From assembly GCA_903839465.1 (NCBI GenBank), contig CAIMCI010000288.1, positions 1 through 45,522 on the forward strand: a DNA stretch of 45,522 nt. Reading direction: 5' to 3'. A program made the translations under genes and the position numbers. This stretch comes from an uncultured Pseudomonadota bacterium. Its GTDB lineage: Bacteria; Pseudomonadota; Gammaproteobacteria; Steroidobacterales; Steroidobacteraceae. Within the stretch, counting starts at the first letter, position 1. Each line of letters begins with the position of its first letter. This document shows positions 3,701 through 17,222 of the stretch, one piece after another. The notes under the pieces are model-generated. The model was not told the DNA's origin, made no database searches, and was given only the letters and a program-made list of their open reading frames with translations.

Positions 3701-3718
3701 AAACAAGCATGACTGTTT
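3701..3718. promoter_or_regulatory. operator-like 18-bp near-palindrome, site 1 (divergent)
   Basis: AAACAAGCATGACTGTTT lies in the divergent gap between the ABM-ligase-ABM operon and the Rieske ferredoxin. Its minus-strand form AAACAGTCATGCTTGTTT differs from site 2 (8220-8237) at one base and from site 3 (13822-13839) at three. CTGTTT of the site is followed after 19 bases by TACAGT (3738-3743), a usable -10 for the ferredoxin. The overlap with a possible -35 suggests repression by a dimeric, TetR-like protein. The regulator type is inferred from site geometry only. Confidence 0.72.
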
Positions 3719-3790
3719 CTTTCGCGCCCGGTTACGGTACAGTGCAGCAAAACGCCGGCACCCTTCGCTTCCGGCCCGAGGCCCCGACCG

Positions 3791-4114
3791 ATGTCCGAAC
3801 CTGTCTACCAGCGCCTCGCGCCGGCGACCGAGATCGCCGAGAACAGCATGCGCGCGTACGCGCTGGGGGACCGGTCGATTCTCGTCTGCCGGACCAAGGC
3901 GGGCCTGCACGCGCTCGACAACATCTGCAGTCATGGCTACGCGAAGCTCGACGAGGGGCGGCTGCGCGGCGTGCGCGTAATCTGCCCGCTGCACGGCGCG
4001 TCCTTCGACTGTCGCGATGGCAGCGTGCTGGGTGCACCGGCGACGGCGCCGCTGCAAAGCTATCCGGTACGTACGGTCGACGGCTGGATCGAGGTCGAAG
4101 TTCCCGGCCCCTAA
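3791..4114 (+). CDS. Rieske [2Fe-2S] ferredoxin
   Basis: A 107-residue soluble Rieske ferredoxin of the kind that passes electrons to Rieske oxygenases. The two cluster-binding motifs are CSHG (Cys46, His48) and CPLHG (Cys65, His68), with the spacing expected for biphenyl- or naphthalene-type ferredoxins. It has no signal peptide or membrane segment, so it is cytoplasmic. It is the only ferredoxin in the window, while three Rieske oxygenase alpha subunits are present and no ferredoxin reductase is seen, so it may serve more than one oxygenase and depend on a reductase encoded elsewhere. It is transcribed alone from the site-1 operator region; the gene after it is convergent, 5 bp away. The ribosome binding site is weak (CGAGG about 10 bases before the ATG). 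Confidence 0.93.
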   Translation: MSEPVYQRLAPATEIAENSMRAYALGDRSILVCRTKAGLHALDNICSHGYAKLDEGRLRGVRVICPLHGASFDCRDGSVLGAPATAPLQSYPVRTVDGWIEVEVPGP

Positions 4115-4119
4115 CCGCG

Positions 4120-4641
4120 CTACTTCGCGATCCGGATCGGCCGCTCGCCATCCCATCGGGCCGCCCGCTCCTTCATGTAGGCAAAGGCGCTGCGCGCCTC
4201 GGCGCTGACTTCGATGAGCTCGATCATGCTGCCGGGGTGGCAGCCGACGTCCACGTAGGCAAAACGTTGGCCGACGAGCGTCTCGCCCTCCTGCACGACG
4301 CGCTCCGCCCAGCCGTCGAGCGCGAGCGACGGCTCGAGCCGGTCAACCAGCACGCCGACGTGCTGCAGGCCCTCGCCATGAGCGTCGAGGTGATCGCGAT
4401 AGATCGACGGCGCGTCGTTGTGCTGCTCGACCAGTTCGACCTGCAGGTCGCCCGAATAGGCGATCGCGACGCTCATGTCGATGGGGCTTGCCGCGCCGCG
4501 GTACGTGCAGCGCGCAAAGCGGATGTGTTCCATCACGAAAAACGGGCCGACGCCGAGCAGCCGACTCCAGTGATCCGCCGCCGACCGCCAGTCGCGGACG
4601 ACGTACCCGTTCTGGATGATGGGGCCGAACAGCCTGCTCAT
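4120..4641 (-). CDS. VOC-family (glyoxalase/bleomycin-resistance fold) protein A
   Basis: A 173-residue protein of the vicinal-oxygen-chelate superfamily, whose members include epimerases, glyoxalases and ring-cleaving dioxygenases. The N-terminal half contains IIQNGYVVRD and GVGPFFVMEHI; the second half contains GLQHVGVLVDRLE and YVDVGCHPGSMIELIE. The His and Glu there are plausible metal ligands. ATG at 4641 overlaps the acyl-CoA dehydrogenase stop by 4 bp (ATGA), which sets the start and implies translational coupling. It is a clear paralogue of the VOC gene at 17268-17783: both have GPF(F/Y), the segment CTYRG and Q(H)(N/D)D(A/E)PS. The coupling to an acyl-CoA dehydrogenase would suit an epimerase or isomerase acting on an acyl-CoA, but this is an inference. 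Confidence 0.85.
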   Translation of the reverse strand: MSRLFGPIIQNGYVVRDWRSAADHWSRLLGVGPFFVMEHIRFARCTYRGAASPIDMSVAIAYSGDLQVELVEQHNDAPSIYRDHLDAHGEGLQHVGVLVDRLEPSLALDGWAERVVQEGETLVGQRFAYVDVGCHPGSMIELIEVSAEARSAFAYMKERAARWDGERPIRIAK

Positions 4642-5798
4642 CGGCGCTGGTCGAAGCGGCGGCCGACCATCGCCGAGGCGATGTTGACCTTCTGGATGTC
4701 GACGGCCCCGCCGGCGATGCCCCAGCCCCACGCGTCGCGCAGGCGGCGCTCCATCGGGTACTCCCGCGAATAACCGTAGGCTCCCATCAGCTGCACGGCG
4801 TTGCCGCAGACCTCGCGGGCGATCTCGTTGGCAAAGCACTTCGCCACGGAGGACTCGATGATGCTGGGCAGGCCGCGCTCCGCGTTGCAGGCGGCGCGGT
4901 GGATCAGGAGCCTTGCTGCCTCGACCCGCATCTGCATCTCGGCAAGCTTGATCTGCACGGCCTGGAATTCGATCAGCGGGCGTCCGAACTGCTCGCGGGA
5001 CTGGACGTAGGCGACGACGTCGGCGAGCGCACCGCTCGCCTGGGCGAGCGCCATGGTCGCATTGCCGCAGCGCTCGAGGTCGAACGCCTCCATGAGCTGC
5101 TTGAAACCACCGGCCGGGACGACGATGTTCTCCGCCGGCACGGCGCAGTTGTCGAAGTAGATATCCGAGGACGGTATGCCGCGAAAGCCCATCAGAGACT
5201 CGGGCTTGCCGAAGGTCATGCCCGGCGTGCCCTCGTCCACGTAGACCGCACCGATGCCCTTGGCACCGGGATCGGCCGAGAGCCGGCAGTAGACGACGTA
5301 GCCACCGGCGTGGCCGCCGCCGGAACACCATCGCTTCGAACCGTTGATGACGATCTGGTCGCCGCGGCGCTCGCCGCGGGTGGTCAGGTCGGTCAGTGCG
5401 GACCCCGCGGCAGGCTCCGACATCGAGATCGCAACGACCTTCTCGCCCCGGCAGACGGCGGGAACGACGCGGTTCCTGAGGGCTGGCGTCGCGAAGCGCT
5501 CGATGGCACGTACCGGGCCCACGCAGGATTCGAAGACCGGGAAGGCGACCGCCGAGGAGATCTTCCCGAACTCCTCGATGACGAGCAGGGCCTCGAGATT
5601 GCCCAGACCCAGGCCACCGAGCTCGGTCGGAATATTGATGCCGAGGAAACCGAGGTCGGCGAACTCGCGTACGAGCGCGGCATCGGGGGCGTGGCCGGTC
5701 TCCTCCAGTTCACGGGCGATCTCCGGCAGACGCTCCGTTGCGTAGCGGCGCGCGGCGAGTTGCAGGGCAAGCTGCTCTTCGGTCAGTTGGAAGTCCAT
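4638..5798 (-). CDS. acyl-CoA dehydrogenase, isovaleryl/long-chain-type base position
   Basis: A 386-residue FAD-dependent acyl-CoA dehydrogenase that introduces a 2,3-double bond in an acyl-CoA. The family signatures are present: ISMSEPAAGSALTDL (FAD and substrate contacts), INGSKRWCSGGGHA, REQFGRPLIEFQAVQ and QLMGAYGYSREYPMERRLRD. At the position where medium- and short-chain enzymes have the catalytic Glu (YEGT), this protein has AGGA (around residue 363). A Glu occurs instead in FDLER (Glu242), where isovaleryl- and long-chain acyl-CoA dehydrogenases keep their base. It is therefore probably active, and perhaps suited to branched or bulky acyl-CoAs. It heads a minus-strand operon with VOC protein A and is divergent from the CoA-transferase. 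The start at 5798 matches the usual family N-terminus (MDFQLTEEQ). Confidence 0.94.
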   Translation of the reverse strand: MDFQLTEEQLALQLAARRYATERLPEIARELEETGHAPDAALVREFADLGFLGINIPTELGGLGLGNLEALLVIEEFGKISSAVAFPVFESCVGPVRAIERFATPALRNRVVPAVCRGEKVVAISMSEPAAGSALTDLTTRGERRGDQIVINGSKRWCSGGGHAGGYVVYCRLSADPGAKGIGAVYVDEGTPGMTFGKPESLMGFRGIPSSDIYFDNCAVPAENIVVPAGGFKQLMEAFDLERCGNATMALAQASGALADVVAYVQSREQFGRPLIEFQAVQIKLAEMQMRVEAARLLIHRAACNAERGLPSIIESSVAKCFANEIAREVCGNAVQLMGAYGYSREYPMERRLRDAWGWGIAGGAVDIQKVNIASAMVGRRFDQRR

Positions 5799-5864
5799 GG
5801 TTTACCTGTCGCCTCGATGATGGATCTCAGAGAAGTTCCGGCAGGCGATCCCCGCCACTCAGTC

Positions 5865-5892
5865 TTGCACGTCGCGGGGACTGTGCGATTAT
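5865..5892 (+). promoter_or_regulatory. weak sigma70-like promoter for the CoA-transferase
   Basis: TTGCAC (5865-5870), a 16-base spacer and GATTAT (5887-5892) precede the CoA-transferase and its possible leader ORF. The match to consensus is moderate. A loose inverted repeat CAGTC/GACTG (5860-5864 and 5879-5883) surrounds the -35, but it is not the 18-bp operator found elsewhere in the cluster. Confidence 0.3.
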
Positions 5893-5935
5893 CCGCGCTC
5901 TGCCCGGTGTAGGTCCGCTGCAAGGAACCGACGAT

Positions 5936-5983
5936 ATGCCAGTCCCGAGTACTGAAGTTCCCTCGCCAGGCGGGGCACCGTGA
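5936..5983 (+). CDS. possible 15-residue leader peptide overlapping the CoA-transferase start
   Basis: A short frame encodes MPVPSTEVPSPGGAP and ends in TGA at 5981-5983, which overlaps the GTG start of the CoA-transferase (GTGA). AAGGA lies about 9 bases before its ATG, a better ribosome binding site than the one before the GTG. The peptide is rich in proline. This could be a translation-coupling leader or chance; the length is too short for any family assignment. Confidence 0.3.
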   Translation: MPVPSTEVPSPGGAP

Positions 5984-7170
5984 GCGGCGGCGTCCTCGAG
6001 GGCATCCGCGTTCTCGACTTCGGCCGGTACGTCGCCGGGCCCTACTGCGCGACCCTGCTTGGCTACCTCGGCGCCGAAGTCATCCGCGTCGAGAAGCGCG
6101 AGGGCAGCGAGGACCGCTTCATCGCGCCGCTGACCCCGACTGGCGATGGCGCGGTTTTTATGCAGACGTCCTGCAACAAGAAGTCGCTGACGCTCGAGCC
6201 GACCACGCCCGAGGGACGCGAGGTGACCCGCCGACTGGTCGGCGTGTCGGATGTCATCGTCGCGAACCTGCCCCCGGCGTCCCTCAGGGCGATGGGGCTC
6301 GACTACGAGAGCGTCACCGCCGTCAGGCCCGATGCGATCCTCGTCACGCAGACCGCGTTCGGCGCGACCGGTCCGTACGCCAACCGCGGCGGCTTTGACG
6401 GCATCGGCCAGGCGATGTCCGGGGCCATGTACATCACCGGGACGCCCGGCTCGCCGGCCAAGGCCGCAGCGCCCTACGTCGACTACACGACGGCCGTCCT
6501 GTCGGCCTTCGGAACGCTCGCGGCCCTGATCGAGAGGGGCAAGAGCGGTCGCGGGCAGCGGGTGGACGCCACGCTCCTCGGTACCGCGCTCGCCGTGTTC
6601 AATTCGCACCTCGTCGAACAGAGCGTCACGGGCATCGGCCGCCAGGGGAGCGGCAACCGGGTGCAGACCTCGGCACCGTCCGACGTGTTCGCGACGACGG
6701 ATGGCCACGTGCTGCTCCACGTGGTCGGCAATGGTCTCTTCAGACGCTGGGCACGCCTGATGGGTGACGAGGAGCGCTGGCTCAGCGACCCGCGTTTCAC
6801 GACGGACCAGTCGCGCGGCGATCACTCTATGCCCATCCTGGAACGAACCCGGGCCTGGTGCGCGCTGCGCTCGACGGCACAGGCGATCGCGGAACTCGAA
6901 AAGGCCGGCCTGCCCGCCGGGCCGGTCTACACGCCGCAACAGGCGCTCGAGGATCCCCAGGTGCAGGCGATGGCGTTCCTGAAACCGGTCCACTACCCGG
7001 GGCTGCCGCGCGACGCGCTCGTCGCGGACCTGCCGGTGGCCTTGTCGCGCACGCCCGGCGGCATCCGCCAGCCGCCGCCCAGGCTCGGTGAGCATACGGA
7101 CGAGATTCTGTCGTCGCTCGGCTATGACGCGGCGGACATTGCCCGCCTGCGGGCGAACGGGATCGTCTGA
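5980..7170 (+). CDS. family III (CaiB/BaiF) acyl-CoA transferase
   Basis: A 396-residue family III CoA-transferase, which moves CoA between carboxylic acids by way of an enzyme-bound glutamyl or aspartyl thioester. The N-terminal LEGIRVLDFGRYVAGPYC and AEVIRVEKREG are typical, as is the central TAFGATGPYANRGGFD. Asp168 in PYVDYTTA matches the catalytic Asp169 of formyl-CoA transferase. The C-terminal RLGEHTDEIL segment is usual for the family. The start is GTG at 5980 with a modest AGGCGGG upstream. It is transcribed away from the acyl-CoA dehydrogenase-VOC pair and ends convergent with the GST gene. It offers an alternative to the ATP-dependent ligase for activating or recycling acids in this pathway. 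Donor and acceptor are not predictable. Confidence 0.93.
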   Translation: MSGGVLEGIRVLDFGRYVAGPYCATLLGYLGAEVIRVEKREGSEDRFIAPLTPTGDGAVFMQTSCNKKSLTLEPTTPEGREVTRRLVGVSDVIVANLPPASLRAMGLDYESVTAVRPDAILVTQTAFGATGPYANRGGFDGIGQAMSGAMYITGTPGSPAKAAAPYVDYTTAVLSAFGTLAALIERGKSGRGQRVDATLLGTALAVFNSHLVEQSVTGIGRQGSGNRVQTSAPSDVFATTDGHVLLHVVGNGLFRRWARLMGDEERWLSDPRFTTDQSRGDHSMPILERTRAWCALRSTAQAIAELEKAGLPAGPVYTPQQALEDPQVQAMAFLKPVHYPGLPRDALVADLPVALSRTPGGIRQPPPRLGEHTDEILSSLGYDAADIARLRANGIV

Positions 7171-7206
7171 CCCGGTCACGCGCGGCGCGGCAGCTGGCAT
7201 CCGTCG

Positions 7207-8130
7207 TCACGCGGTGATCCGCTCGACGCGGTAGCCCATGCGCGGGAAATGAACGACCACCTCGCCGGCGCGCGGGTCGATGCGCCGTATCGCCACTTCG
7301 CGCAGTTGCAGGGTCACGAGCGTGCCGGTGACCGGTATCCGGCCGTAGTCGTCCGGCGTGACCTGCACGAGGTCCCCCGCGCCGAGGCCAAGCGCATCGG
7401 CGGGGTCGACCCCGGCGCCGGGCAGCGGGCCCGTCGAATGGGCCTCGGCGAGTGCCGCGTCGCTGCCGAGCGGCGTGCGGTCGCCGTGGCCGATGGCCCG
7501 CATGCGCTCCTCCCAGGCGCCGAGATGACGGAACCGCTGCAGCAGCGCCGCCGCGGTCGGCACGTTGCTGCGGATCATCCAGACCGGAAAATACGCGTTG
7601 ATGTCGGCCAGTCCGGGAACGGCACCCAGCAGGTGCGGACGGCCGTCGGCGAGTTGCTGATCGACGAGGTCCGCGTGGGCGAGCAACTGGGTGGTCAGGT
7701 GCGGCAGGTCGACTTCAAGCCGGTCAAAGTCCATGAAGTTGAAGAAGGCCTTGCGGTCGTCAATGATCGCCTTCGGCAGGCCGTTGCGGTTCATGCCCAT
7801 CGACAGGCCGGCACCGGGCTCGAAGAAGGCGCGATCGCTCCACGCGCACAGCGCGAGCGACAGACCCTGCTGACCGTCCGGGAACAGCGAGGGCTCGGGG
7901 AAGCGGCGCTCGAGCTCGGTGGCGATCAGCCGGGTGTCGCAGTAGATGTCGGCACCGATCTGCAGCACCGGGGTCTTGCGGTAGCCGCCGGTCAGCGCGG
8001 TCAGGTCCGGCTTTGGCATCACGAGCGGAATCTCGACCGACCGCCACGCAAGGCGCTTCAGGCCGAGCATCAGGCGGACCTTCTCGGCAAACGGGGACAG
8101 ATCGAAGTGATGCAGAATGGGTGTGTTCAT
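7207..8130 (-). CDS. glutathione S-transferase-like protein with extra C-terminal domain
   Basis: A 307-residue protein. Residues 1-85 form a thioredoxin-like GST N-domain with SPFAEKVRLML (Ser12 near the usual thiol-activating position) and the cis-proline region KTPVLQIG, followed by the DTRLIATELE helix. An all-helical GST C-domain extends to about residue 205. The remaining 90 or so residues (including DDYGRIPVTGTLVTLQ and PRMGYRVERI) look beta-rich and are not part of a normal GST of about 210 residues. AGGAAG 8 bases before the ATG supports the start. It is divergent from a Rieske oxygenase and shares the site-2 operator. A TATAGT on its own strand (8196-8201) lies 18 bases from CTGTTT of the palindrome. 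It may conjugate or isomerise a reactive pathway intermediate; its substrate is unknown. Confidence 0.85.
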   Translation of the reverse strand: MNTPILHHFDLSPFAEKVRLMLGLKRLAWRSVEIPLVMPKPDLTALTGGYRKTPVLQIGADIYCDTRLIATELERRFPEPSLFPDGQQGLSLALCAWSDRAFFEPGAGLSMGMNRNGLPKAIIDDRKAFFNFMDFDRLEVDLPHLTTQLLAHADLVDQQLADGRPHLLGAVPGLADINAYFPVWMIRSNVPTAAALLQRFRHLGAWEERMRAIGHGDRTPLGSDAALAEAHSTGPLPGAGVDPADALGLGAGDLVQVTPDDYGRIPVTGTLVTLQLREVAIRRIDPRAGEVVVHFPRMGYRVERITA

Positions 8131-8195
8131 GGCGGGCTTCCTGAGTCGTCGTGCTCGGCGGCCCGCGTGGGCAGCGGCGGCGCTGCCGCTCCCCG

Positions 8196-8263
8196 ACTAT
8201 AGCCCGCCTAACATAAAAAAAACAGTCAGGCTTGTTTCTTTTGTCGATTCAGCCGACTATACT
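8196..8263. promoter_or_regulatory. operator site 2 with overlapping divergent promoters
   Basis: The near-palindrome AAACAGTCAGGCTTGTTT occupies 8220-8237. On the minus strand CTGTTT (8220-8225) and TATAGT (8196-8201) are separated by 18 bases, forming a promoter for the GST gene. On the plus strand TTGTTT (8232-8237) is followed by TATACT (8258-8263) after 20 bases, a promoter for the Rieske-thiolase operon. The palindrome covers the possible -35 elements on both sides. The stretch after it (GCCGACT, then TCGACCCCTG) recurs downstream of site 3. Confidence 0.75.
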
Positions 8264-8351
8264 TCGACCCCTGGCGACAGACCGGCCATGGCAGCGCGCG
8301 GTAGAGGTCGTGGCCACAGACGGCGTGCGCACTAGCAGGAGGCGCAGTTCG

Positions 8352-9578
8352 ATGGTCAAGCCGGTTGCAGTCGAGCCCATCAAGGCCGCGATGGCCTTCG
8401 AGTTTTCACGCACCGCGCCGCCGCCCGGTTTTCCGGCGCTGCCGCCGATTCCGGGTGGACGCTACACCGACCCGGCGTTCCTCGCGCTCGAACAGCAGCA
8501 CCTGTGGAAGGCGAGCTGGCTGTACGCCTGCCACATCGATGAAATCCCCGAACCCGGGCACTTCATCGTTTTCCGGCGCACGGGCTCGCCCATCCTGATC
8601 GTGCATGGCAAGGACGGGGTCGTACGCGCCTTCTACAACACCTGCCGGCACCGCGGCGCGCCGCTCGTCAAGGAGTCCACGGGCAAGGTCGAGGGGCTCG
8701 TCTGCCAGTACCACGGCTGGACCTACGGCCTCGACGGCACCCTGATGAATCTGCGGGACAAGCGCGACTTTCCGGACTTTGACGCGACCTGTTATTCGCT
8801 AGGCGGCATCGCCTGCGAGCGGTTCGGCAACTGGGTGTTCGTCAACGAGGCGCCGTCGCCGCGCCCGCTGCAGGAAACGCTCGGCGAAATAGCCGAGATG
8901 TGGGCGGACATCCAGCCGGGCCAGACCCGCTTCGTGCACAAGAAGTCCTACCACGTGAAGTGCAACGTGAAGGTCCTGCTGGACGCGTTCCTCGAGGTCT
9001 ACCACCTCAAGTCCATCCACCAGCAGACGGTCGACCGCTTCCTCGATCACCGCGGTACGGCCATCTATCTCTGGCCGCACGGCAACTCCCTGATGGTGAC
9101 ACCGAACCGGCGTCCCGACTGGGAAGATCCGGGCACGCGCGGCATGCTGAAGCTCGCCAGCGCGTCGGAGATCACGGCCCACCACAACCCCTCGTACCAC
9201 CTCTACCCGAATCTCGTCACGCCCATCGCGGACAGCGGCATACCGTTCATTCTCTTCTGGCCGTGCGGGCCCCGGGAAATGGAGATCGAGGTCGTCTGGT
9301 TCGCGCCGGACTGGGGCGGCGGCCCGCTCAATCCGCTGTGGGAAAAACGCATCGCCAACTTCGAGCGAATCCTCTACGAGGACACGCAGTTCGCCGAATA
9401 CATCCAGGAGTCCGTCGAGTCAACCGGCTACCGCGGGCTGAACCTGAACTATCAGGAACGGCGCATCTACCACTGGCACGAGGAACTCGACCGGCGGATC
9501 GGGCGCGAACGCGTTCCCGCACACCTCGCCGTGACGCCGATGCTGCGACCGTTCGTCGTCGACACCATCGCGAAATGA
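8352..9578 (+). CDS. Rieske non-haem iron oxygenase alpha subunit 1
   Basis: A 408-residue ring-hydroxylating or O/N-dealkylating oxygenase alpha subunit. The Rieske domain has Cys98-x-His100 (CRHRG) and Cys118-x2-His121 (CQYHGW). The catalytic domain has DAFLEVYHLKSIH, in which His218 and His223 form the H-x4-H pair of the mononuclear iron site, and a C-terminal EDTQFAEY segment that could supply the acidic ligand. No beta subunit gene is present, so a homotrimer is likely. ATG at 8352 was chosen because AGGAGG lies 9 bases upstream; an upstream in-frame ATG at 8232 is inside the operator. It is first in an operon with the HMGCS-like/DUF35 fusion (4-bp overlap), thiolase, SDR and CMD genes. 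Electrons may come from the ferredoxin at 3791. The substrate is unknown, perhaps a CoA ester or free acid. Confidence 0.94.
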   Translation: MVKPVAVEPIKAAMAFEFSRTAPPPGFPALPPIPGGRYTDPAFLALEQQHLWKASWLYACHIDEIPEPGHFIVFRRTGSPILIVHGKDGVVRAFYNTCRHRGAPLVKESTGKVEGLVCQYHGWTYGLDGTLMNLRDKRDFPDFDATCYSLGGIACERFGNWVFVNEAPSPRPLQETLGEIAEMWADIQPGQTRFVHKKSYHVKCNVKVLLDAFLEVYHLKSIHQQTVDRFLDHRGTAIYLWPHGNSLMVTPNRRPDWEDPGTRGMLKLASASEITAHHNPSYHLYPNLVTPIADSGIPFILFWPCGPREMEIEVVWFAPDWGGGPLNPLWEKRIANFERILYEDTQFAEYIQESVESTGYRGLNLNYQERRIYHWHEELDRRIGRERVPAHLAVTPMLRPFVVDTIAK

Positions 9579-11017
9579 CGCGCGGCATCACGAGCTGGTC
9601 GGCCTACCTGCCCCGACAGCGGCTCGCCCGGTCCGCGGTCGCATCCGCGCTCGCCTGGTGCAGGCAGCCGGCGAAACGGGCGGCGACCGGCGAGCGCGCC
9701 TACGGCAGCTGGGACGAGGACAGCGTGACCATGGCGGTCGAGGCGGGACGGCTGGCGCTGCACGCCGCGCCGGCGCGGAACGCCGGGGCCCTGCATCTGG
9801 CCTCGACGACGCTGCCGTTCGCCGACCGGAGCAACGCCGGCATCGTGGCCGACGCCCTGTCGCTCGCCAATCCCCTGGACACCCAGGACGCCACCGGCTC
9901 GCAGCGGGCCGCGACCGGGCTGCTGCTACGGGCACTCAGCGGCGCCGGTGCCGGCGATACGCTCGTCGTTGCGGCTGAGCGTCGGCGCACCCGGCCGGGC
10001 AGCCCCGAAGAGGTCGCCTACGGCGACGGCGCGGCCGCCGTGCTCGTGGGCTCGGCGGGCGTCGTGGCCGAGTTCGTCGGCGCGCGCTCCGTGGCCGTCG
10101 ACTTCGTCGATCACTACCGCGAGACGGCAGCCGATCACGACTACGCGCTCGAGGAGCGCTGGGTGCGGACCGAAGGCCATCTGAAGCTCGTCCCGGATGC
10201 CGTTCGCCACCTGCTCGGGGAGCGCGCGATCGCGGCGGGCGACGTCCACCACTTCATATTCGCCGCGCCGCACGGCGCCGCGATCCAGGTCGCGGCTGCC
10301 TGTGGGATCGGCGCCGAGGCCGTCGCCGACCCGCTGCTCGAGCGCTGCGGGCATACGGGAGCGGCGCATCCGCTCCTCATGCTCGGTGCCGTTCTCGATG
10401 CCGCCGGTCCCGGTGAGCTCATCGTGCTGGTCGGGTTCGGCCAGGGCGTTGACGTGCTTATGCTGCGTACGACGGCTGCCGTCGCGGGCGCCATGGCGCG
10501 CGGGACGGTCGGCCGGGCGCTGTCCTCTGGCGTGACCGACCACGCCTACGTGCGCTTCCTGTCGCACAGCGGCACGCTCGCCATGGACTGGGGAATGCGT
10601 GCCGAGCGCGACACGCGCACGGCGCAGACCGTGCATTATCGCAAGCACCGCGAGCTCAACGGCCTCGTCGGCGGCCGCTGCCGGTCGTGCGACACGGTGC
10701 AGTACCCGAAATCGCGGGTCTGCGTGAACCCGGCCTGCCGGGCGACCGACACCCAGTCGGATGAGGTCCTGGCCGACGCCGCCGGACAGGTCAAGACCTT
10801 CACCGAAGACTGGCTGGCCTACGTACCCGCGCCGCCACTCCAGTACGGCAACATCGGCCTGCACGGTGGCGGCAATCTCTTCATCGAATTCGCCGACGTC
10901 GACCCGGGCGAGCTCAGCGTGGGTGCTGCCACGCGCTTCGTCTTCCGGATCAAGGACGTCGATCATGTCCGCGGTTTCCACCGCTACTTCTGGAAGGCCA
11001 CCCCGGTGAGGAGCTGA
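9575..11017 (+). CDS. HMG-CoA-synthase-like thiolase-fold protein fused to a DUF35 zinc-ribbon/OB-fold domain
   Basis: A 480-residue two-domain protein. Residues 1-300 look like an HMG-CoA synthase/KAS III-type thiolase fold (segments GAAAVLVGS, FIFAAPHGAAIQ, GFGQGVDVLML). Residues 355-480 form a DUF35 domain with a zinc ribbon (Cys369, Cys372, Cys383, Cys388) and an OB fold. By eye, the nucleophilic Cys of HMGCS is replaced by Thr107 (DATGS), the Glu near residue 80 is missing, His233 is kept, and the Asn of GNTGAA is His260. It may thus not do Claisen chemistry. ATGA overlap with the Rieske gene sets the start, and the thiolase follows after 2 bp. In archaea, thiolase, HMGCS and DUF35 proteins form one channelling complex; in steroid side-chain breakdown, a DUF35 protein pairs with a thiolase-like aldolase. 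Either is a model for this pair. Confidence 0.85.
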   Translation: MTRGITSWSAYLPRQRLARSAVASALAWCRQPAKRAATGERAYGSWDEDSVTMAVEAGRLALHAAPARNAGALHLASTTLPFADRSNAGIVADALSLANPLDTQDATGSQRAATGLLLRALSGAGAGDTLVVAAERRRTRPGSPEEVAYGDGAAAVLVGSAGVVAEFVGARSVAVDFVDHYRETAADHDYALEERWVRTEGHLKLVPDAVRHLLGERAIAAGDVHHFIFAAPHGAAIQVAAACGIGAEAVADPLLERCGHTGAAHPLLMLGAVLDAAGPGELIVLVGFGQGVDVLMLRTTAAVAGAMARGTVGRALSSGVTDHAYVRFLSHSGTLAMDWGMRAERDTRTAQTVHYRKHRELNGLVGGRCRSCDTVQYPKSRVCVNPACRATDTQSDEVLADAAGQVKTFTEDWLAYVPAPPLQYGNIGLHGGGNLFIEFADVDPGELSVGAATRFVFRIKDVDHVRGFHRYFWKATPVRS

Positions 11018-11019
11018 AC

Positions 11020-12228
11020 GTGGCCAGCGGCATCAAGGACAAGGTGGCGATAGTCGGCATGGGCTGCAGCCGTTTTGGCGAGCGCTGGGACGCCGGTGCC
11101 GACGACCTGATGATCGAGGCGTTCGGCGAGGCGCTCGCCGACGCGGGCATCGAGCGCGACCGAATCGAGGCCGGCTGGCTCGGCGTCTTCTACCAGGACC
11201 AGAGCGTGTCGCGCTCGGGGTTGCCGCTGTCCATGGCGCTCAGGCTGCCGAACATTCCGGTGACCCGCGTCGAGAACCTGTGCGCCACTGGTACGGAAGC
11301 CCTGCGGGGCGCGGCCTACGCGGTAGCGAGCGGCGCGGTCGACATTGCCATCGCCATGGGTGTCGAAAAGCTCAAAGACACCGGTTTCGGCGGGTTGCCG
11401 GAGCGAACGAAGGGGACCTTCGAGGATCAGTGGCAGCCGGGTTTCACGCCACCCGGGGCGTTCGCCCAGCTCGGCGCGGCGTACGCTGCGCGCCACGGCA
11501 TCGCGATGGATGAACTGCGCCGGGCGATGGCCCACATCTCGTGCAAGAGCCACAGCAACGCGAAATTCAACCCGAAAGCGCACCTGCGCAATGCCATCAC
11601 GCCCGAGCAGGTGCTCGCGGCGCCGATGATCGCCTATCCGCTTGGCGTGCTCGACTGCTGCGGGGTCAGCGACGGTGCCGCGTGCGCGATCGTGACGACG
11701 CCCGAAATCGCGGCGAGTCTCGGCAAGCGCGATCAGGTCACGATCAAGGCCCTGCAGCTTGCGCCGTCCAACGGCGTGGAAATGGGCCACGCCAGCTGGG
11801 ACGGCAGCCACACGCTGACTACCCCGATCGCTGCCGGCCGTGCCTACCGCGAGGCGGGGGTCCGTGACCCGGTGGCCGAGATCGATCTGATCGAAGTGCA
11901 CGACTGTTTCTCGATCACCGAACTCGTGCTCATGGAAGACCTGGGATTCAGCGCCGCCGGGCGGGCACCCGCCGACGTGCTCGACGGTCGCTACGACCGC
12001 GATGGCGCGATGCCGTGCCAGACCGACGGTGGCCTGAAGTGCTTCGGCCATCCGGTCGGTGCCTCCGGTCTGCGCATGGTCTATGAGATCTACACCCAGC
12101 TTCTGGGGCGTGCCGGCCAGCGGCAACTGTCCAGCCCGGCGCTGGGCCTCGCCCAGAACCTCGGCGGGATACCGAACAGAAACGTCGCGAGCGTGGCCAT
12201 CGTCGGCCTGCACGCCCACAAATCCTGA
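11020..12228 (+). CDS. SCP-x/Ltp-type thiolase or thiolase-like aldolase
   Basis: A 402-residue thiolase-superfamily protein of the sterol-carrier-protein-x/lipid-transfer subgroup. Visible residues are Cys88 in ENLCATGTEAL (nucleophile position), His294 in EVHDCFSITEL and His344 in CFGHPVGASG. The second thiolase Cys near the C-terminus is absent (AQNLGGIPNRN), as is usual in this subgroup. The start is GTG with GAGGAG 7 bases upstream, 2 bp after the DUF35 fusion gene, so the two are almost surely translated together and probably form a complex. Members of this subgroup either cleave 3-oxoacyl-CoAs or act as retro-aldolases on 3-hydroxyacyl-CoAs with a tertiary alcohol. Retention of the Cys favours thiolysis, but the aldolase option remains. 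Confidence 0.92.
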   Translation: MASGIKDKVAIVGMGCSRFGERWDAGADDLMIEAFGEALADAGIERDRIEAGWLGVFYQDQSVSRSGLPLSMALRLPNIPVTRVENLCATGTEALRGAAYAVASGAVDIAIAMGVEKLKDTGFGGLPERTKGTFEDQWQPGFTPPGAFAQLGAAYAARHGIAMDELRRAMAHISCKSHSNAKFNPKAHLRNAITPEQVLAAPMIAYPLGVLDCCGVSDGAACAIVTTPEIAASLGKRDQVTIKALQLAPSNGVEMGHASWDGSHTLTTPIAAGRAYREAGVRDPVAEIDLIEVHDCFSITELVLMEDLGFSAAGRAPADVLDGRYDRDGAMPCQTDGGLKCFGHPVGASGLRMVYEIYTQLLGRAGQRQLSSPALGLAQNLGGIPNRNVASVAIVGLHAHKS

Positions 12229-12263
12229 CGCCGGCCCGGCGTGCACGCTGCAGCGAGAATGCA

Positions 12264-13157
12264 ATGATCAAGGCAGAACCCGTGAAACCTGTACTTGTCG
12301 CCGACGAGGAACCGCGCTGGGGTTACACGATGGAGCAGCTGGCCACGGCTCCCATGGCGTTTCGCGAGGACCTCTTCGCGGATCAGGTGGTCCTGATCAC
12401 CGGCGGTGGCGGTGGTTTCGGGCGTGCGATGGCGTTCATGTTCGCGCGGCTCGGCGCGCACGTCATCGTCAGCGGCCGCAAGCCCGAGAAGCTCGACAAG
12501 ACGGCGGAGGGTGTCGCTCGGCTGCTCGGCAAGGAAATTTCGACGGTGCCGATGAACATCCGTCGACCCGCCGACTGCGAGGCGCTCATCGACCACGCCT
12601 GGGAACGCTACGGCAGGCTCGACCTCCTGGTCAACAACGCCGGTGGGCAGTATCCGCAGGCTGCGATCGACTTCTCCACCAAGGGCTGGCTTGCCGTCAT
12701 CGACACCAACCTGAACGGCACCTGGTACATGATGCAGGCCGCGGCGCGGCGCTGGCGCGACGCCAAGGTGCCGGGCAGCATCGTGAACATCGTGGCCAAC
12801 GTCTGGCGCGGCATGCCGCAGGTGGCTCACACGTGTGCGGCCCGCGCCGGTGTCATCTACCTCAGCAAGACGCTCTCCACCGAGTGGGCGCCGTTCGATG
12901 TTCGCGTCAACTGCGTCTCGCCCGGCTCGATCAACTCGGACGGCCTGAACGTGTACGACCCGGCCGCCGCGCTGCAGTTCAAGAATTCCAACCCCATGCG
13001 CCGCTTCGGCCACGTGTATGACGTCGGCCAGGCGGTTGCGTACGTGGGCGGACCGGCCGGCAGCTTCACGACGGGCGCCGTCATCGTCGTTGACGGTGGC
13101 AACGCCCAGTGGGGCGATGTCTGGCCGGCCGGCAAGCCCGACTATTTCACGGTCTGA
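12264..13157 (+). CDS. SDR, trans-2-enoyl-CoA reductase-like, without the YxxxK motif
   Basis: A 297-residue short-chain dehydrogenase/reductase. It has the nucleotide-binding TGGGGGFG (residues 46-53), NNAG at 124-127 and the C-terminal VNCVSPG and VDGG segments. The SDR catalytic YxxxK is absent: the aligned stretch is HTCAARAG, giving Thr190 and Arg194. Peroxisomal trans-2-enoyl-CoA reductases (PECR) and related 2,4-dienoyl-CoA reductases have this HxGAARAG pattern, so the enzyme most likely reduces an enoyl- or dienoyl-CoA with NADPH rather than a ketone. It also has a longer N-terminus (about 35 residues before the fold) than most SDRs. It is fourth in the site-2 operon, 35 bp after the thiolase. 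The ribosome binding site is weak. Confidence 0.88.
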   Translation: MIKAEPVKPVLVADEEPRWGYTMEQLATAPMAFREDLFADQVVLITGGGGGFGRAMAFMFARLGAHVIVSGRKPEKLDKTAEGVARLLGKEISTVPMNIRRPADCEALIDHAWERYGRLDLLVNNAGGQYPQAAIDFSTKGWLAVIDTNLNGTWYMMQAAARRWRDAKVPGSIVNIVANVWRGMPQVAHTCAARAGVIYLSKTLSTEWAPFDVRVNCVSPGSINSDGLNVYDPAAALQFKNSNPMRRFGHVYDVGQAVAYVGGPAGSFTTGAVIVVDGGNAQWGDVWPAGKPDYFTV

Positions 13158-13199
13158 TCGCCGGCGGATCCCGCAACCCGGCAGCCAACGGAGGATGCT

Positions 13200-13787
13200 A
13201 TGGCCAACACCCTGATGCAGAGAATTCCGCGCACCGAGCTGCCCGCGCAGCTGCACGTGGCCTGGGATACGCTCAATCGACTGACCGGCGAGCCGACCTT
13301 CGTCGAGGTCTTCGCGCAGAACCCGGCGATGCTGGATTTCGTGATGAACCAGTTCTACGGGCAGATCTTCTTCGGCGGCCAGGTCGACCAGCGCTACAAG
13401 CAGCTCGCGCGCCTGCGCCTGTCGACGCTGCACGGCTGCCGAACCTGCAACAAGCAGAACGTGCCGGGGGCTCTCGCGGCCGGGATCACCCAGGCCCAGA
13501 TCGATGCCATCGGCCACTTCGAGACGGGCCCCTTCACCGATGCCGAGAAGGCCGTGCTTGCCTATACCGAGCAGGTCGCGCTGACCAACATGGACGGACG
13601 AATGAGCGCCGAGCTGTACCAGCGGCTGCGGGCGCACTTCAGTGATGCCGACCTCTGCGAGCTGGGCGTGGTCATGGCCGTGATCTCCGGCATGGCGAAA
13701 CTCGCCTTCGTGCTCGACCTGGTCGAGCGCGAGCCGTACTGCCCGTTCGGCAGCGCCGCGGCGTCCGACGGTACGGCGGCGCACTAG
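13200..13787 (+). CDS. carboxymuconolactone decarboxylase/AhpD-like protein
   Basis: A 195-residue all-helical protein of the CMD/AhpD superfamily. The CxxC redox motif is present in HGCRTCNKQN; the His that follows it in AhpD-type peroxidases is replaced by Asn, so peroxidase activity is uncertain. Residues 80-150 match the CMD core. GGAGG 5 bases before the ATG is the best ribosome binding site of the operon. It is the last gene of the site-2 operon, and site 3 follows within 35 bp. Members near catabolic genes are decarboxylases, peroxide-detoxifying proteins or of unknown role. Protecting the Rieske oxygenases from uncoupled peroxide would fit here but is inferred. Confidence 0.86.
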   Translation: MANTLMQRIPRTELPAQLHVAWDTLNRLTGEPTFVEVFAQNPAMLDFVMNQFYGQIFFGGQVDQRYKQLARLRLSTLHGCRTCNKQNVPGALAAGITQAQIDAIGHFETGPFTDAEKAVLAYTEQVALTNMDGRMSAELYQRLRAHFSDADLCELGVVMAVISGMAKLAFVLDLVEREPYCPFGSAAASDGTAAH

Positions 13788-13821
13788 CGTCGCCACCGGC
13801 CGGTCCGCTGCGCTGCAATAA

Positions 13822-13863
13822 AAACAGTCAGACCTGTTTTTTTAGGACCTGCCGACTTACTAT
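13822..13863 (+). promoter_or_regulatory. operator site 3 and promoter of the second Rieske operon
   Basis: The near-palindrome AAACAGTCAGACCTGTTT lies at 13822-13839. CTGTTT (13834-13839) and TACTAT (13858-13863) are 18 bases apart and would drive the Rieske-PQQ-VOC-SDR operon, with the palindrome covering the -35. Downstream of it, GCCGACT and TCGACCCCTG repeat the sequence found after site 2, so the two promoter regions share an origin beyond the operator itself. A T-run immediately after the palindrome could also let it act as a terminator for the CMD gene. Confidence 0.72.
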
Positions 13864-13905
13864 CAGTCGACCCCTGTGCCCAGCGCCACCGCCCCGGAGA
13901 CGGAC

Positions 13906-15264
13906 ATGTTTGCGTATAACAAGCCCTACGTCGTCAATCCCTCGGCGCCCGAGCAGTCTCTCGAGGCAAAGCGGCCGCAGCCGGACAACGGTCTCGACGT
14001 GCCGAGTCCCGACCGCTACTACACGCGCGAGTTCATGGAGCGCGAGTGGCGGGACCTCTGGCCCCGGGTCTGGCTGCTGGCCGGCGTCACCTCCGACATT
14101 CCGGAGAGTGGCGACTACTCGGTATTCGACATCGGCCACGAGTCGGTCGTGCTCGTCCGGCAGAAGGACGGCTCGATCAAGGCCTTCTACAACGCGTGCC
14201 CGCACCGCGGCAACAAGATCGCCCTCAATGACATGGGCAGCGTCGACAAGTTCACGTGCGCCTTCCATGCCTGGCAGTTCTGCACCAGTGGCAAGCTGCT
14301 GAAGATCACCGACGAGGAGAGCTTTCATCCGGACCTGATCAAGCATCGTCCGGGCCTGTCGGAGCTGCGCTGCGACTCGATCGGCGGCCTCATCTTCATC
14401 AACATGGATGGCAAGGCGCCGCCGCTCGCCGACTGGATCGGCCTGCCGAAGGGCTACATCGAGAACTACGCCATCGATCAGATGCACGTCGTGCGCCACG
14501 TGCGCACCGAATGGCGCGGCAACTGGAAGGTCGGCGTTGACTCCTTCTACGAGACCTACCACCTGCCGCATATCCATCCGCAGACCCAGGGCGTGATGGA
14601 GGACTTCTCGCAGTACGATCTCTACCCGAACGGCTTCAGCCGGATGATCGTGCCCATCTGCACGAAGTCGCACCGGATCGAAGACCAGGACACGGTGACG
14701 CCGGACCTGCAGTACATGATGCAGGAAGCGGGCATGGATCCCGCGGCGTACCGGGGCCCGGCGCAGGGTGTGCGAGGCGCCGTCCAGGCGGCCAAGCGCG
14801 CCCGCGCGAAGCGGCTCGGACTCGATCACTACGAACGCTTCACGGACGGCCAGCTGACCGACAGCTGGGCCACGGGTCTTTTCCCCAACGTGCAGATCGG
14901 CATGCACCCGGAGGGCGTGTTCATCATGCGCTTCCTGCCGCATGCCACCGATCCGGAGCGCTTCTATTACGACAACATCACGATGTACCGGTATGTCGAT
15001 GACCCCAACTACTTCGTGCCCGGCTGGATGGGCCTGCCGAAGGACACGGACGTCACGGGCGCGACGAGGCCGGCGATGGAGTTCTACACGGCGGACCAGA
15101 AGGCCGACCTCGGACCGGTGCTGAACCAGGACGTGGAACTCGTCTCTGCGGTTCATCGCGGCCAGAAATCCCGGGGCTTCGCCGGTCCGCTCTGGTGCGA
15201 GCAGGAATCGCGCGTCCGCCACTTCCACCGCGAACTGGACCGGGTGATGGGGCTGCGCCGCTGA
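13906..15264 (+). CDS. Rieske non-haem iron oxygenase alpha subunit 2
   Basis: A 452-residue oxygenase alpha subunit. The Rieske ligands are Cys98-x-His100 (CPHRG) and Cys118-x2-His121 (CAFHAW). The catalytic-domain motif DSFYETYHLPHIH gives His219 and His224 as the H-x4-H iron pair. It differs markedly from the first Rieske protein in the C-terminal half and is somewhat longer. ATG at 13906 has GGAGA 5 bases upstream; a GTG 30 bases earlier would start only about 6 bases after the predicted transcription start, so it is less likely. It heads the operon under site 3, followed by the c-PQQ dehydrogenase. No reductase or beta subunit accompanies it. It probably performs a second hydroxylation or ring-opening step in the same pathway. 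Confidence 0.94.
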   Translation: MFAYNKPYVVNPSAPEQSLEAKRPQPDNGLDVPSPDRYYTREFMEREWRDLWPRVWLLAGVTSDIPESGDYSVFDIGHESVVLVRQKDGSIKAFYNACPHRGNKIALNDMGSVDKFTCAFHAWQFCTSGKLLKITDEESFHPDLIKHRPGLSELRCDSIGGLIFINMDGKAPPLADWIGLPKGYIENYAIDQMHVVRHVRTEWRGNWKVGVDSFYETYHLPHIHPQTQGVMEDFSQYDLYPNGFSRMIVPICTKSHRIEDQDTVTPDLQYMMQEAGMDPAAYRGPAQGVRGAVQAAKRARAKRLGLDHYERFTDGQLTDSWATGLFPNVQIGMHPEGVFIMRFLPHATDPERFYYDNITMYRYVDDPNYFVPGWMGLPKDTDVTGATRPAMEFYTADQKADLGPVLNQDVELVSAVHRGQKSRGFAGPLWCEQESRVRHFHRELDRVMGLRR

Positions 15265-15347
15265 GATCCACGGCCCCGACGCGACTCCATCGGACGGGCG
15301 CCGCTGCGCCCGCGACGGCAACCTCAGTTCCTCGGCAGCGAGCCACC

Positions 15348-17222
15348 ATGACATTCCACCGCGCGATCGCCTCGGCAGTTCTGATCGGAATCCTGGGCAC
15401 GGGGACGGCCGTTGCCGCCGTGCCGGACAGTCCGCCCAACCCGGAAAACCTGCCCGGGGCTGCCCTCTACGAGGCCAACTGCGCCGCCTGCCACGAGGGC
15501 GGCGTCTACAAGGCGCCGGTGCACTACATCGTCGCGCAGATGCCCTCCGACATGGTCTATGCGGCGATGTCGACCGGTGTCATGCAGCAGCAGGCGGCCA
15601 AGCTGACCGATACCGAGCGGCGCCAGGTAGCCGAATACCTCACCGGCGAGTTGCCGGGATCCGCACCGGCAACCGCCGCCGCCCCGCTGTGCACCGGCAA
15701 GGCGGCGATCTTCGACCGGACCCTGCCGCCGCGGCTCACCGCCTGGGGCTTCGATCCCGGAAATTCCCATCACATCCCGGGAGCGGTCGCTGGCCTGAGC
15801 GCGGAGGACCTGCCGCGGCTCAAGGTCAAATGGGCGTTCGCCTACCCGGGAGCGCAGCGTGCCCGTTCGCAGCCGACGCTCGCCATGGGCGCGCTCTTTG
15901 TCGGCAGCCCGAGCGGCACCGTCTACGCGCTCGATGCCGCTTCGGGCTGCATCCGCTGGACCTTCCGCGCGACGGCCGAGGTCCGCACCCCGGTCGTGCT
16001 CTCGTCCTGGTCCGCCGCGGAGGCCAAGAGCGCGCGGCCGCTCGCCTTCTTCGGGGACATCGTCGGTCGCGTGTATGCCGTCGATGCGCTCACCGGCGAG
16101 CTGCGCTGGAAGCTCCGTGCGGACGATCACGCCAGCACGACGCTGACCGGCGCCCCGGCCTACCACGCCGGAACGCTCTACGTGCCCGTCTCGTCGCTGG
16201 AAGAAGGCAACACCAATCCGCACTACGAGTGCTGCACGTTCCGCGGCTCGGTACTCGCCGTCGATGCGGCATCCGGCAAGGTGCGATGGAAGTCCTACAC
16301 GATTGACGAGGCGCCGAAGAAGGTCGGCGTGAACGGCGTGGGTACGGCGATCTACGCGCCGTCCGGAGCGGCCATCTGGAACAGCCCGACGATCGATGCC
16401 GCGCGTGGCCTACTGTACGTCGGTACCGGCGACAACTACTCGGCACCGGCCAACGATCGAAGCGATGCCATCCTTGCCTTCGACCTCAAGAGCGGCCGCG
16501 TGCGCTGGTCCTGGCAGGTCCTCAAAGGCGACGCCTGGAACGTGGGCTGCCTGATGAAGACCGCCGACTGCCCGGACCCGTCGGGCCCTGACTTTGACGT
16601 TGCCGGCGGCGGGACGATGCTCGTCAAGGCGCCGTCGGGTCGCGCGTACCTTTACGCCGGTACAAAGAGTGGCACGGCGTTCGCCATCGACCCCGACACT
16701 CACCGGGGAACCGCGTGGTCGCAGAAGGTCGGCCGCGGCGGTGTCCAGGGCGGCATCCAGTTCGGTATGGCGAGCGACGGCCAGCGCCTGTACGTACCGA
16801 TTTCCGATCACATCATGCAGGGCGAACCGCCGTATCCCGGCGAACCGCGTCCGGGCATGTACGCGCTCGATGCCGCGACCGGCGCCGTCGTCTGGAGCGC
16901 GCCCGCGCCGGATCGCTGTGCTAAGGATCCCCTCTGTTCGCCCGGAATCCTCGCGGCCGTGACCTCGATCCCGGGCGCCGTGCTCGCCGGGCACATGGAC
17001 GGTTACCTGCGTGCGTACGCCGCGGACAGCGGCAAGGTACTGTGGGAATACGACACCCGCCAGCCCGTCGCGACACTGTCGGGGGCGCAGTCGCATGGCG
17101 GCAGCATCGGCGGCTCGGGACCGGTCGTCTACGACGGCATCGTCTACCTCAATTCCGGTTACTCGCTGTACGGGCACCTGCCGGGCAACGTGCTCTATGC
17201 GTTCTCCGTCGACGGCAAATAG
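15348..17222 (+). CDS. periplasmic quinohaemoprotein dehydrogenase (N-terminal cytochrome c, PQQ beta-propeller)
   Basis: A 624-residue exported alcohol dehydrogenase-like protein. A signal peptide (residues 1-24, ending AVAA) is followed by a small cytochrome c domain with Cys45-x2-Cys48-His49, then a PQQ-type eight-bladed propeller with repeated blade motifs such as GTVYALDAASG and GKVRWKS. Two adjacent cysteines (295 and 296, in YECCTF) match the vicinal disulphide that stacks on PQQ in many quinoproteins. The haem domain is N-terminal, whereas type II quinohaemoprotein alcohol dehydrogenases carry it at the C-terminus; I recall polyvinyl-alcohol dehydrogenases having the N-terminal order. 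It would oxidise an alcohol in the periplasm and pass electrons to the respiratory chain. No PQQ synthesis gene is in the window. It lies 83 bp after the Rieske gene and has a weak ribosome binding site. Confidence 0.9.
   Translation: MTFHRAIASAVLIGILGTGTAVAAVPDSPPNPENLPGAALYEANCAACHEGGVYKAPVHYIVAQMPSDMVYAAMSTGVMQQQAAKLTDTERRQVAEYLTGELPGSAPATAAAPLCTGKAAIFDRTLPPRLTAWGFDPGNSHHIPGAVAGLSAEDLPRLKVKWAFAYPGAQRARSQPTLAMGALFVGSPSGTVYALDAASGCIRWTFRATAEVRTPVVLSSWSAAEAKSARPLAFFGDIVGRVYAVDALTGELRWKLRADDHASTTLTGAPAYHAGTLYVPVSSLEEGNTNPHYECCTFRGSVLAVDAASGKVRWKSYTIDEAPKKVGVNGVGTAIYAPSGAAIWNSPTIDAARGLLYVGTGDNYSAPANDRSDAILAFDLKSGRVRWSWQVLKGDAWNVGCLMKTADCPDPSGPDFDVAGGGTMLVKAPSGRAYLYAGTKSGTAFAIDPDTHRGTAWSQKVGRGGVQGGIQFGMASDGQRLYVPISDHIMQGEPPYPGEPRPGMYALDAATGAVVWSAPAPDRCAKDPLCSPGILAAVTSIPGAVLAGHMDGYLRAYAADSGKVLWEYDTRQPVATLSGAQSHGGSIGGSGPVVYDGIVYLNSGYSLYGHLPGNVLYAFSVDGK

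Follow-up and report, generated by a model that had tools for sequence, protein, structure and literature searches.

What does a protein do that joins a domain resembling hydroxymethylglutaryl-CoA synthase (HMGCS), but without the catalytic residues of that enzyme, to a DUF35 domain, and whose gene is followed at once by that of a thiolase? The question is raised by a gene pair on contig CAIMCI010000288.1 of the Steroidobacteraceae assembly GCA_903839465.1, whose 45,522 nt are referred to here as the window (all coordinates are window positions). An earlier note, made by reading the sequence, had placed the pair at 9575–12228 with a gap of 2 bp between the genes, and both the fusion gene (9575–11017) and the thiolase gene (11020–12228) were confirmed there (+ strand). 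By analogy with known complexes, we consider it fairly probable that the fusion is a scaffold and pocket subunit, made of a pseudo-HMGCS and a DUF35 domain, of the neighboring thiolase, which would cleave bulky 3-oxoacyl-CoAs.

The fusion gene encodes 480 aa in a single open reading frame (ORF), as seen in the ORF list, in Pfam and NCBIfam matches and in an AlphaFold2 (AF2) model. Its N-terminal part (approximately residues 1–335; 9575–10579) matches the Pfam family ACP_syn_III_C, and its C-terminal part (approximately residues 350–480; 10622–11014) is a DUF35 domain, with a zinc ribbon and an OB fold, that matches zf-ChsH2 at residues 362–392. In a profile search, the DUF35 chains 6esq_E and PhlB match fusion positions ~350–475 (6esq_E at 352–475, E 8.9e-14). 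The AF2 model, built on 62 relatives, is a confident prediction (mean pLDDT 92.4, pTM 0.93) and confirms the HMGCS/KAS III fold of the N-terminal domain. Its best match in the PDB is PhlA (9skh_A, Z 44.9, root-mean-square deviation (rmsd) 1.9, 334 residues aligned, model residues 1–343), followed by an archaeal HMGCS (6esq_I, Z 44.7, rmsd 2.0, 332 residues) and MucA (9vbo_A, Z 41.3, rmsd 2.6, 337 residues); the Foldseek/VIA matches under this top group are MvaS and FabH, as the fold predicts. The DUF35 part keeps the four cysteines of its zinc ribbon (C369, C372, C383 and C388; 10679–10738), as had been noted earlier.

We assigned the catalytic columns of the HMGCS-like domain with a MAFFT alignment anchored on the published mapping of PhlA, in which, according to the accessible sections of PMC6392133, the catalytic Cys of HMGCS corresponds to Gly115 and the catalytic Glu to Cys83. 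The printed sequences of 5m3k_A and 6esq_I bear the named residues at the published numbers. Cys114 and Glu82 of 6esq share columns with PhlA Gly115 and Cys83, and the residues of the window fusion in these columns are Gln110 (codon 9902–9904) and Thr78 (9806–9808); 6esq His238 aligns with Ala230 (10262–10264) and 6esq Asn270 with His260 (10352–10354). Among the 62 fusions of the alignment, the Glu column holds Thr in 61 and Ser in one, the Cys column Q in 33, L in 16, R in 7, M and A in 2 each and P and S in 1 each, and the His column P in 50, A in 5, H and N in 3 each and D in 1. The Asn column holds D in 32, E in 11, H in 6 and various others, but never Asn. A further 35 fusion rows contain no Cys (one has a gap), no Glu, one His and four Asn in the respective columns. 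Across all 97 rows (at most 96 distinct, as L056 and L130 are identical) this amounts to no Cys, no Glu, four His and four Asn, with the Glu column kept as Thr and the Cys, His and Asn columns varying among fusions. As a positive control, three genuine HMGCS sequences from the same search (L126–L128) have E, C, H and N at the four positions.

Because the Glu, Cys, His and Asn columns are occupied by T78, Q110, A230 and H260, the synthase part is, as read from the alignment, a pseudoenzyme that has lost all four HMGCS catalytic residues. The earlier note had rightly seen that the catalytic Cys and Glu are missing, and a conserved active-site Cys, which it had set beforehand as refuting, was looked for by alignment and is absent from all 97 rows. 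It was also right that His260 replaces the Asn. However, Thr107, which it had put in the place of the Cys, lies three residues from the column defined by 6esq and PhlA, and the Leu (residue 80) that it had put in the place of the Glu lies two residues from Thr78. Its reading of the histidine in the motif APHGA as a remaining active-site residue was mistaken, since this residue (H233) lies in a different column from the catalytic His, one in which the commonest letter is Ala (11/62).

The best NCBIfam name for the fusion is nevertheless hydroxymethylglutaryl-CoA synthase, as it would be for an ordinary enzyme of the mevalonate pathway. All HMGCS models score below their cut-offs, however (NF003274 and TIGR00748 at 146.6 of 244 and 94 of 353 bits, another at 15.9 of 360), and the genome has Dxr of the methylerythritol phosphate (MEP) pathway and no match to the HMG-CoA reductase family PF00368. 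With the four catalytic residues lost, such an identity is scarcely credible: a mevalonate role is excluded by the residues and unlikely by genome content. A degraded or recent pseudogene was likewise rejected, because the reading frame is uninterrupted, the family is preserved intact across the 97 rows compared and the spacing of the genes suggests translational coupling on both sides. In polyketide loading modules, decarboxylases of the KS-Q type have Gln in place of the active-site Cys. A decarboxylase of this style acting through Gln110 was rejected as well, because relatives show L, R, M, A, P and S at the same position and because the His and Asn have been lost too.

The partner encoded downstream is an SCP2-type thiolase of 402 aa with a GTG start. 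It scores 646.9 bits against a cut-off of 403 for NF004810 (PRK06157), and its best match in the PDB is the archaeal acetoacetyl-CoA thiolase 6esq_A (5.8e-52), tied with 7yvy_A (6e-52). In an alignment of 86 thiolase rows that includes the window (85 distinct, L016 being a duplicate of L042), the nucleophile Cys88 (codon 11281–11283 in the window) is present in all 86. The HDCF motif (residues 294–297; 11899–11910) occurs in all 83 rows that have letters there (3 are truncated), and the GHP motif (residues 343–345; 12046–12054) in all 82 such rows (4 truncated). The available parts of PMC12329534 describe a nucleophilic Cys and HDCF in SCP-2 thiolases, but Gly and YDCY in the aldolase Sal and YDHF in Ltp2. 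Because Cys88 and HDCF are kept, as in SCP-2 thiolases and unlike in Sal, we class the window enzyme by its residues as thiolase-type, without the retro-aldolase signature.

This bears on whether the pair might be a retro-aldolase, like Ltp2/ChsH2-DUF35 and Sal/Shy, that frees acyl-CoA from a 3-hydroxyacyl-CoA. Those aldolases likewise combine DUF35 with a partner of the thiolase fold inside a degradation cluster (PMC12329534, in the parts available), and in them, as in the benzoylsuccinyl-CoA thiolase BbsAB, DUF35 holds a thiolase-fold enzyme; the same source reports that DUF35 shapes the substrate pocket in Sal. No HMGCS-like domain has been described in these systems, however, and Sal lacks a nucleophilic Cys, while both Cys and HDCF are present in the window thiolase and in every partner whose sequence covers the sites. 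In addition, the cluster of Novosphingobium ES2-1 contains the pair and, apart from it, a lipid-transfer protein + OB-fold gene, so that the two systems stand side by side and presumably do different jobs. We therefore regard a retro-aldolase as very improbable.

The fusion and the thiolase occur together with great regularity. In 84 of the 87 loci (86 distinct, given the same duplicate), the fusion gene is followed directly by a thiolase gene on its own strand; in L036 and L046 this ORF is masked by spurious overlapping ORFs, and in L033, L051, L068 and L084 it is cut by the contig end. As for the three remaining loci, L063 and L092 have a same-strand thiolase within 3.7 kb and L085 has no room for one. 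Among 59 relatives, the fusion occurs in 16 genomes and the cognate thiolase in the same 16, at 64–100% identity (in one of the genomes, G769, the two lie on separate contigs). In the other 43 the best thiolase match reaches 34%, with 8 having a match at E <= 1e-20 and 35 none. Thiolase paralogs of 40–41% identity occur only in two genomes that also hold the pair. Similarly, the 34 plasmid records with a fusion coincide with the 34 thiolase records ranked highest among the best 60 of 460 (at least 42% identity), and the next 26 plasmid thiolase records among the matches listed show at most 37%. In the genome of the window itself, zf-ChsH2 matches once and Thiolase_C_1 once above its cut-off, in each case within this gene pair. 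From these patterns, the thiolase looks like an obligate partner of the fusion.

Upstream of the fusion lies a gene for a Rieske oxygenase alpha subunit (alpha only; 8352–9578, + strand; Pfam Rieske and Ring_hydroxyl_A, scanned from 8355), whose stop codon is overlapped by the ATG start of the fusion gene. The thiolase gene, with its GTG start, begins 2 nt past the stop of the fusion, behind a GAGGAG (11008–11013) that is likely its ribosome-binding site. Because of this overlap and this short gap, the Rieske, fusion and thiolase genes look translationally coupled. The earlier note had offered two roles for the synthase part, a scaffold handing a CoA ester to the thiolase or a new C-C lyase. 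The pseudoenzyme and scaffold proposals fare better, given the loss of the four catalytic residues and the pairing of the genes, while a lyase is disfavored by the free variation of three of the four catalytic columns and by the thiolase signature of the partner.

A dead HMGCS-like subunit working with DUF35 and a thiolase has already been published as PhlACB (PpATase, CsATase), the 2,4-diacetylphloroglucinol acyltransferase. PMC6392133 reports that PhlA has neither the Cys nor the Glu, that only PhlC residues act, that the subunit equivalent to the N-terminal domain takes no direct part in acyl transfer, and that the complex holds four copies of each subunit. This equal stoichiometry makes a fusion of subunits A and B plausible. 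PhlACB and the window system share an HMGCS-fold subunit without Cys and Glu, a Cys4 DUF35 and a thiolase-fold subunit with a catalytic Cys, which is Cys88 in both by their own numbering. They differ in that PhlACB consists of three separate chains, whereas A and B lie in one ORF in the window, and in that PhlC performs a CoA-free aryl C-acylation, whereas the window thiolase keeps HDCF and its relatives often stand amid beta-oxidation genes. The archaeal acetoacetyl-CoA thiolase/HMGCS/DUF35 complex (6ESQ, 6ET9) is built of the same three modules, and its thiolase is, among solved structures, the nearest to that of the window (tied, as above, with 7yvy_A), but its HMGCS, a separate chain, retains Glu82 and Cys114 and works in the mevalonate pathway. 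MucABC of Streptococcus macacae (9VBO, 9VBT) has an HMGCS-fold A subunit like the N-terminal domain of the fusion; in the printed sequence of MucA 9vbo_A, Glu occupies the Cys column and Cys the Glu column. Its chains too are separate, and its PDB title names it a multi-component acyltransferase. The earlier note had called the fusion a distinct version of such complexes, which remains apt for the joining of A and B, although the PhlACB precedent makes the rest less new. What is new is the A-B fusion and a large, probably catabolic family paired with a thiolase.

The fusion corresponds to subunits A and B of PhlACB and of the archaeal complex joined in a single chain. By analogy with these complexes, DUF35 would clamp the pseudo-synthase domain onto the thiolase encoded next door, and the two proteins together would close and shape the CoA/acyl pocket. 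Chemistry would be left to Cys88 of the thiolase alone. The reaction is most likely a thiolytic (retro-Claisen) cleavage of a bulky 3-oxoacyl-CoA, which the neighboring CoA-transferase, acyl-CoA dehydrogenase, Rieske and short-chain dehydrogenase/reductase (SDR) enzymes might supply.

PhlACB itself suggests a different reaction, in which the complex is a C-acyltransferase (Friedel-Crafts type, CoA-free or CoA-dependent) or a ring de-acylase that, in the window, takes an acyl chain off a ring produced by the Rieske oxygenases. PhlA and MucA are among the closest structural relatives of the N-terminal domain and its nearest neighbors in our tree (where support for the fork is not starred), the gene just before the fusion encodes a Rieske protein in the window and at 21 other loci, and Rieske alpha and beta genes lie close by in R. 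opacus PD630 and Variovorax SRS16. Moreover, a review and a research paper describe ipfDE of ibuprofen degradation, an SCPx thiolase and a second protein, as taking off the acyl-CoA chain once the ring has been dioxygenated (PMC6063337 and PMC9195938, as far as available). Nevertheless, the window thiolase is much closer to 6esq_A (5.8e-52) than to PhlC, which matches it at only 1.7e-17 in the PDB search, and carries HDCF; acyl-CoA dehydrogenase and hydratase genes occur in 7 of 11 plasmid neighborhoods; and IpfE appears, from the coverage figures in the accessible part of PMC11347016, to be a short OB-fold protein unlike the fusion. We thus judge an acyltransferase or de-acylase to be a rather unlikely identity for the pair. 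A direct homology of the pair with IpfDE was not confirmed, the same coverage figures being at odds with it, and no Rhizorhabdus record occurs among the 34 plasmid rows with a fusion or the best 60 of 460 thiolase records.

We compared the gene neighborhood in 86 loci (one duplicate, L016 = L042), counting as orthologs proteins of at least 50% identity to those of the window. An ortholog of the first Rieske protein occurs in 21 loci, and its gene is always the one immediately before the fusion, on the strand of the fusion. Orthologs of the class III CoA-transferase (5980–7170, + strand; a candidate for the CoA-activating step) occur in 17, of the acyl-CoA dehydrogenase (4638–5798, − strand) in 15, of the SDR dehydrogenase (12264–13157, + strand, likely in the same operon as the fusion) in 17, of the CMD protein in 8 and of the second Rieske oxygenase alpha subunit (13876–15264, + strand) in 10; these genes were assigned by Pfam. 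Because orthologs of window genes recur around fusion loci in this way, 4638–17222 is, as gene content indicates, a conserved cluster for catabolism, which encodes two Rieske oxygenases (alpha subunits only), a CoA-transferase, an acyl-CoA dehydrogenase, an SDR and a CMD protein. PDB searches with the Rieske proteins gave matches mainly to their N-terminal halves, which indicate no substrate, and we found no basis for predicting one. In 7 of 11 annotated plasmid neighborhoods there is both an acyl-CoA dehydrogenase gene and an enoyl-CoA hydratase/MaoC gene.

Two relatives carry additional domains. One joins the HMGCS-like and DUF35 domains to an SDR and an SCP2 domain in one ORF (L103:7944-10721), and another joins them to an SDR (L085:1140-3524). 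These architectures are reminiscent of the eukaryotic multifunctional beta-oxidation proteins. They place a dehydrogenase-type domain on the scaffold and thereby support the proposed step: neighborhoods and SDR/SCP2 fusions point to a thiolase acting after a 3-hydroxyacyl-CoA dehydrogenase, though they are no proof of it.

If the thiolase alone were catalytic, it would be expected to diverge more slowly than the pseudoenzyme. We compared the 53 of the 62 alignment loci that have a near-complete thiolase row (L042 left out), and the thiolase is more conserved than the N-terminal domain in all 1378 pairs (mean 67.9 vs 45.5%). The N-terminal domain is nonetheless constrained, with 51 positions conserved in at least 90% of the 97 fusion rows, 13 of which differ from both PhlA and archaeal HMGCS. 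Such conservation might mean that the synthase domain has acquired an active site of its own, made of conserved residues (T78, D105, S109, R111, E193, R195 and W196), that acts or assists before thiolysis. However, 38 of the 51 positions recur in PhlA or HMGCS, perhaps owing to the fold, the N-terminal domain is the faster-evolving partner in every pair compared, and the equivalent subunit of PhlACB has no direct part in acyl transfer (PMC6392133, accessible sections). We consider a new active site quite improbable.

Some of these residues could alternatively serve binding. By this proposal, the vacated synthase site would be a second, fusion-specific acyl-CoA site (T78, S109, R111 and the EERW motif) that hands the bulky acyl-CoA from the dehydrogenase to the thiolase. 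We think this unlikely, but if it were true, a synthase active site would have become a channeling dock and the relatives fused to SDR and SCP2 would be one-chain beta-oxidation assemblies.

Several observations weigh against a scaffold for thiolysis, or weaken what has been said in its favor. PhlC carries out a CoA-free acyl transfer, and complexes of this kind are therefore not limited to thiolysis. The immediate operon of the window holds no enoyl-CoA hydratase gene (one lies at 18628–19413 on the − strand), and 4 of the 11 plasmid neighborhoods lack the combination of dehydrogenase and hydratase genes (Niveispirillum, Azoarcus, N. pentaromativorans and Streptomyces); of these, Niveispirillum has the Rieske-type cluster in common with the window. 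The extra domain in L103 and L085 is named only SDR, and to call it a 3-hydroxyacyl-CoA dehydrogenase is a guess; the two also group together in the tree and probably reflect one fusion event. The strong conservation of the fusion-specific residues T78, R111, E193 and W196 suggests that the N-terminal domain may do more than hold the complex together. Thiolases may evolve slowly in any case, and the contrast in divergence is weak evidence. Finally, the co-occurrence of fusion and thiolase rests on related genomes rather than independent events, and we attach no probability to it; among the plasmids, 24 records are banded at 60–80% identity vs 23 among the best 60 of 460, and there is one short high-identity match elsewhere.

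How widespread are such fusions? In a genome scan, at least 543 stretches encode a relative (tblastn E <= 1e-3). The best 80 of these are full-length or nearly so, and it is for those 80 that the fusion architecture is established. The family thus probably has hundreds of members, on chromosomes and plasmids of mostly environmental bacteria. Evenly sampled genomes show it to be sparse: an even sample of the class contained it in 10 of 369 genomes, and an even sample of the phylum gave matches in 14 of 398 (the window genome being included in both), of which 10 are full-length fusions, one is an unfused pseudo-domain and three are true HMGCS. The unfused case, a distant phylum member (L125:317-2897), is an operon of a thiolase, a Cys-less HMGCS-like protein and a DUF35 protein. 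Some record titles of metagenome-assembled genomes, such as 'Klebsiella pneumoniae' for L024 and 'Kuenenia' for L034, are in our judgment likely mislabels and unfit as evidence of the host.

We built a tree from 40 of the 62 alignment rows, 10 further fusions and 8 other sequences. The fusions form one group with L125 beside it; PhlA and MucA are nearest to them, followed by archaeal HMGCS. This branching order is tentative because the fork that joins PhlA and MucA with the fusions has an SH-aLRT value of 88 (not starred) and because L125 and 9vbo sit on long branches. The four-Cys zinc site of DUF35 is lost in 9 of the 97 fusion rows (L052, L065, L112, L120, L121, L122, L123, L124 and L129), which mostly show C-T-S-x in place of the four cysteines; part of the family may have a zinc-free DUF35 ribbon.

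The annotated relatives in our set are named HMG-CoA synthase, KAS III C-terminal-domain, OB-fold or hypothetical protein, and such names hide dead-synthase scaffolds tied to one thiolase. In the literature searched, outside which most subscription papers lie, we found no description of a family this large that is fused, paired with a thiolase and probably catabolic. One presumed member belongs to a published operon, the edc estradiol cluster of Novosphingobium tardaugens, in which EGO55_13555 (annotated as HMG-CoA synthase) adjoins the thiolase EGO55_13550. The gene order of Novosphingobium ES2-1 (L110), whose fusion is 31% identical to that of the window, matches this cluster, and we presume EGO55_13555 to be a member from this order rather than from its own sequence. 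The accessible part of PMC7793797 lists it as one of two genes of the cluster without an assigned step. IadG of auxin degradation has a similar annotation and is likened to the fusion by description only (PMC12633357, available portions). Clusters of the family probably degrade steroids, aromatics and other bulky acids. The pair also suggests how a channeling complex of anabolism could be turned to catabolic use: one active site is lost, and the glue protein becomes joined to the subunit that is now inactive.

Two further ORFs were noted. A 354-aa ORF at 3709–4773 has no Pfam match, overlaps the end of the acyl-CoA dehydrogenase gene and may be spurious. The other, at 15345–17222, encodes a beta-propeller protein of the PQQ type whose N-terminal part is a cytochrome c domain; homologs of this protein are found near the fusion and thiolase genes in 5 of the 86 loci.

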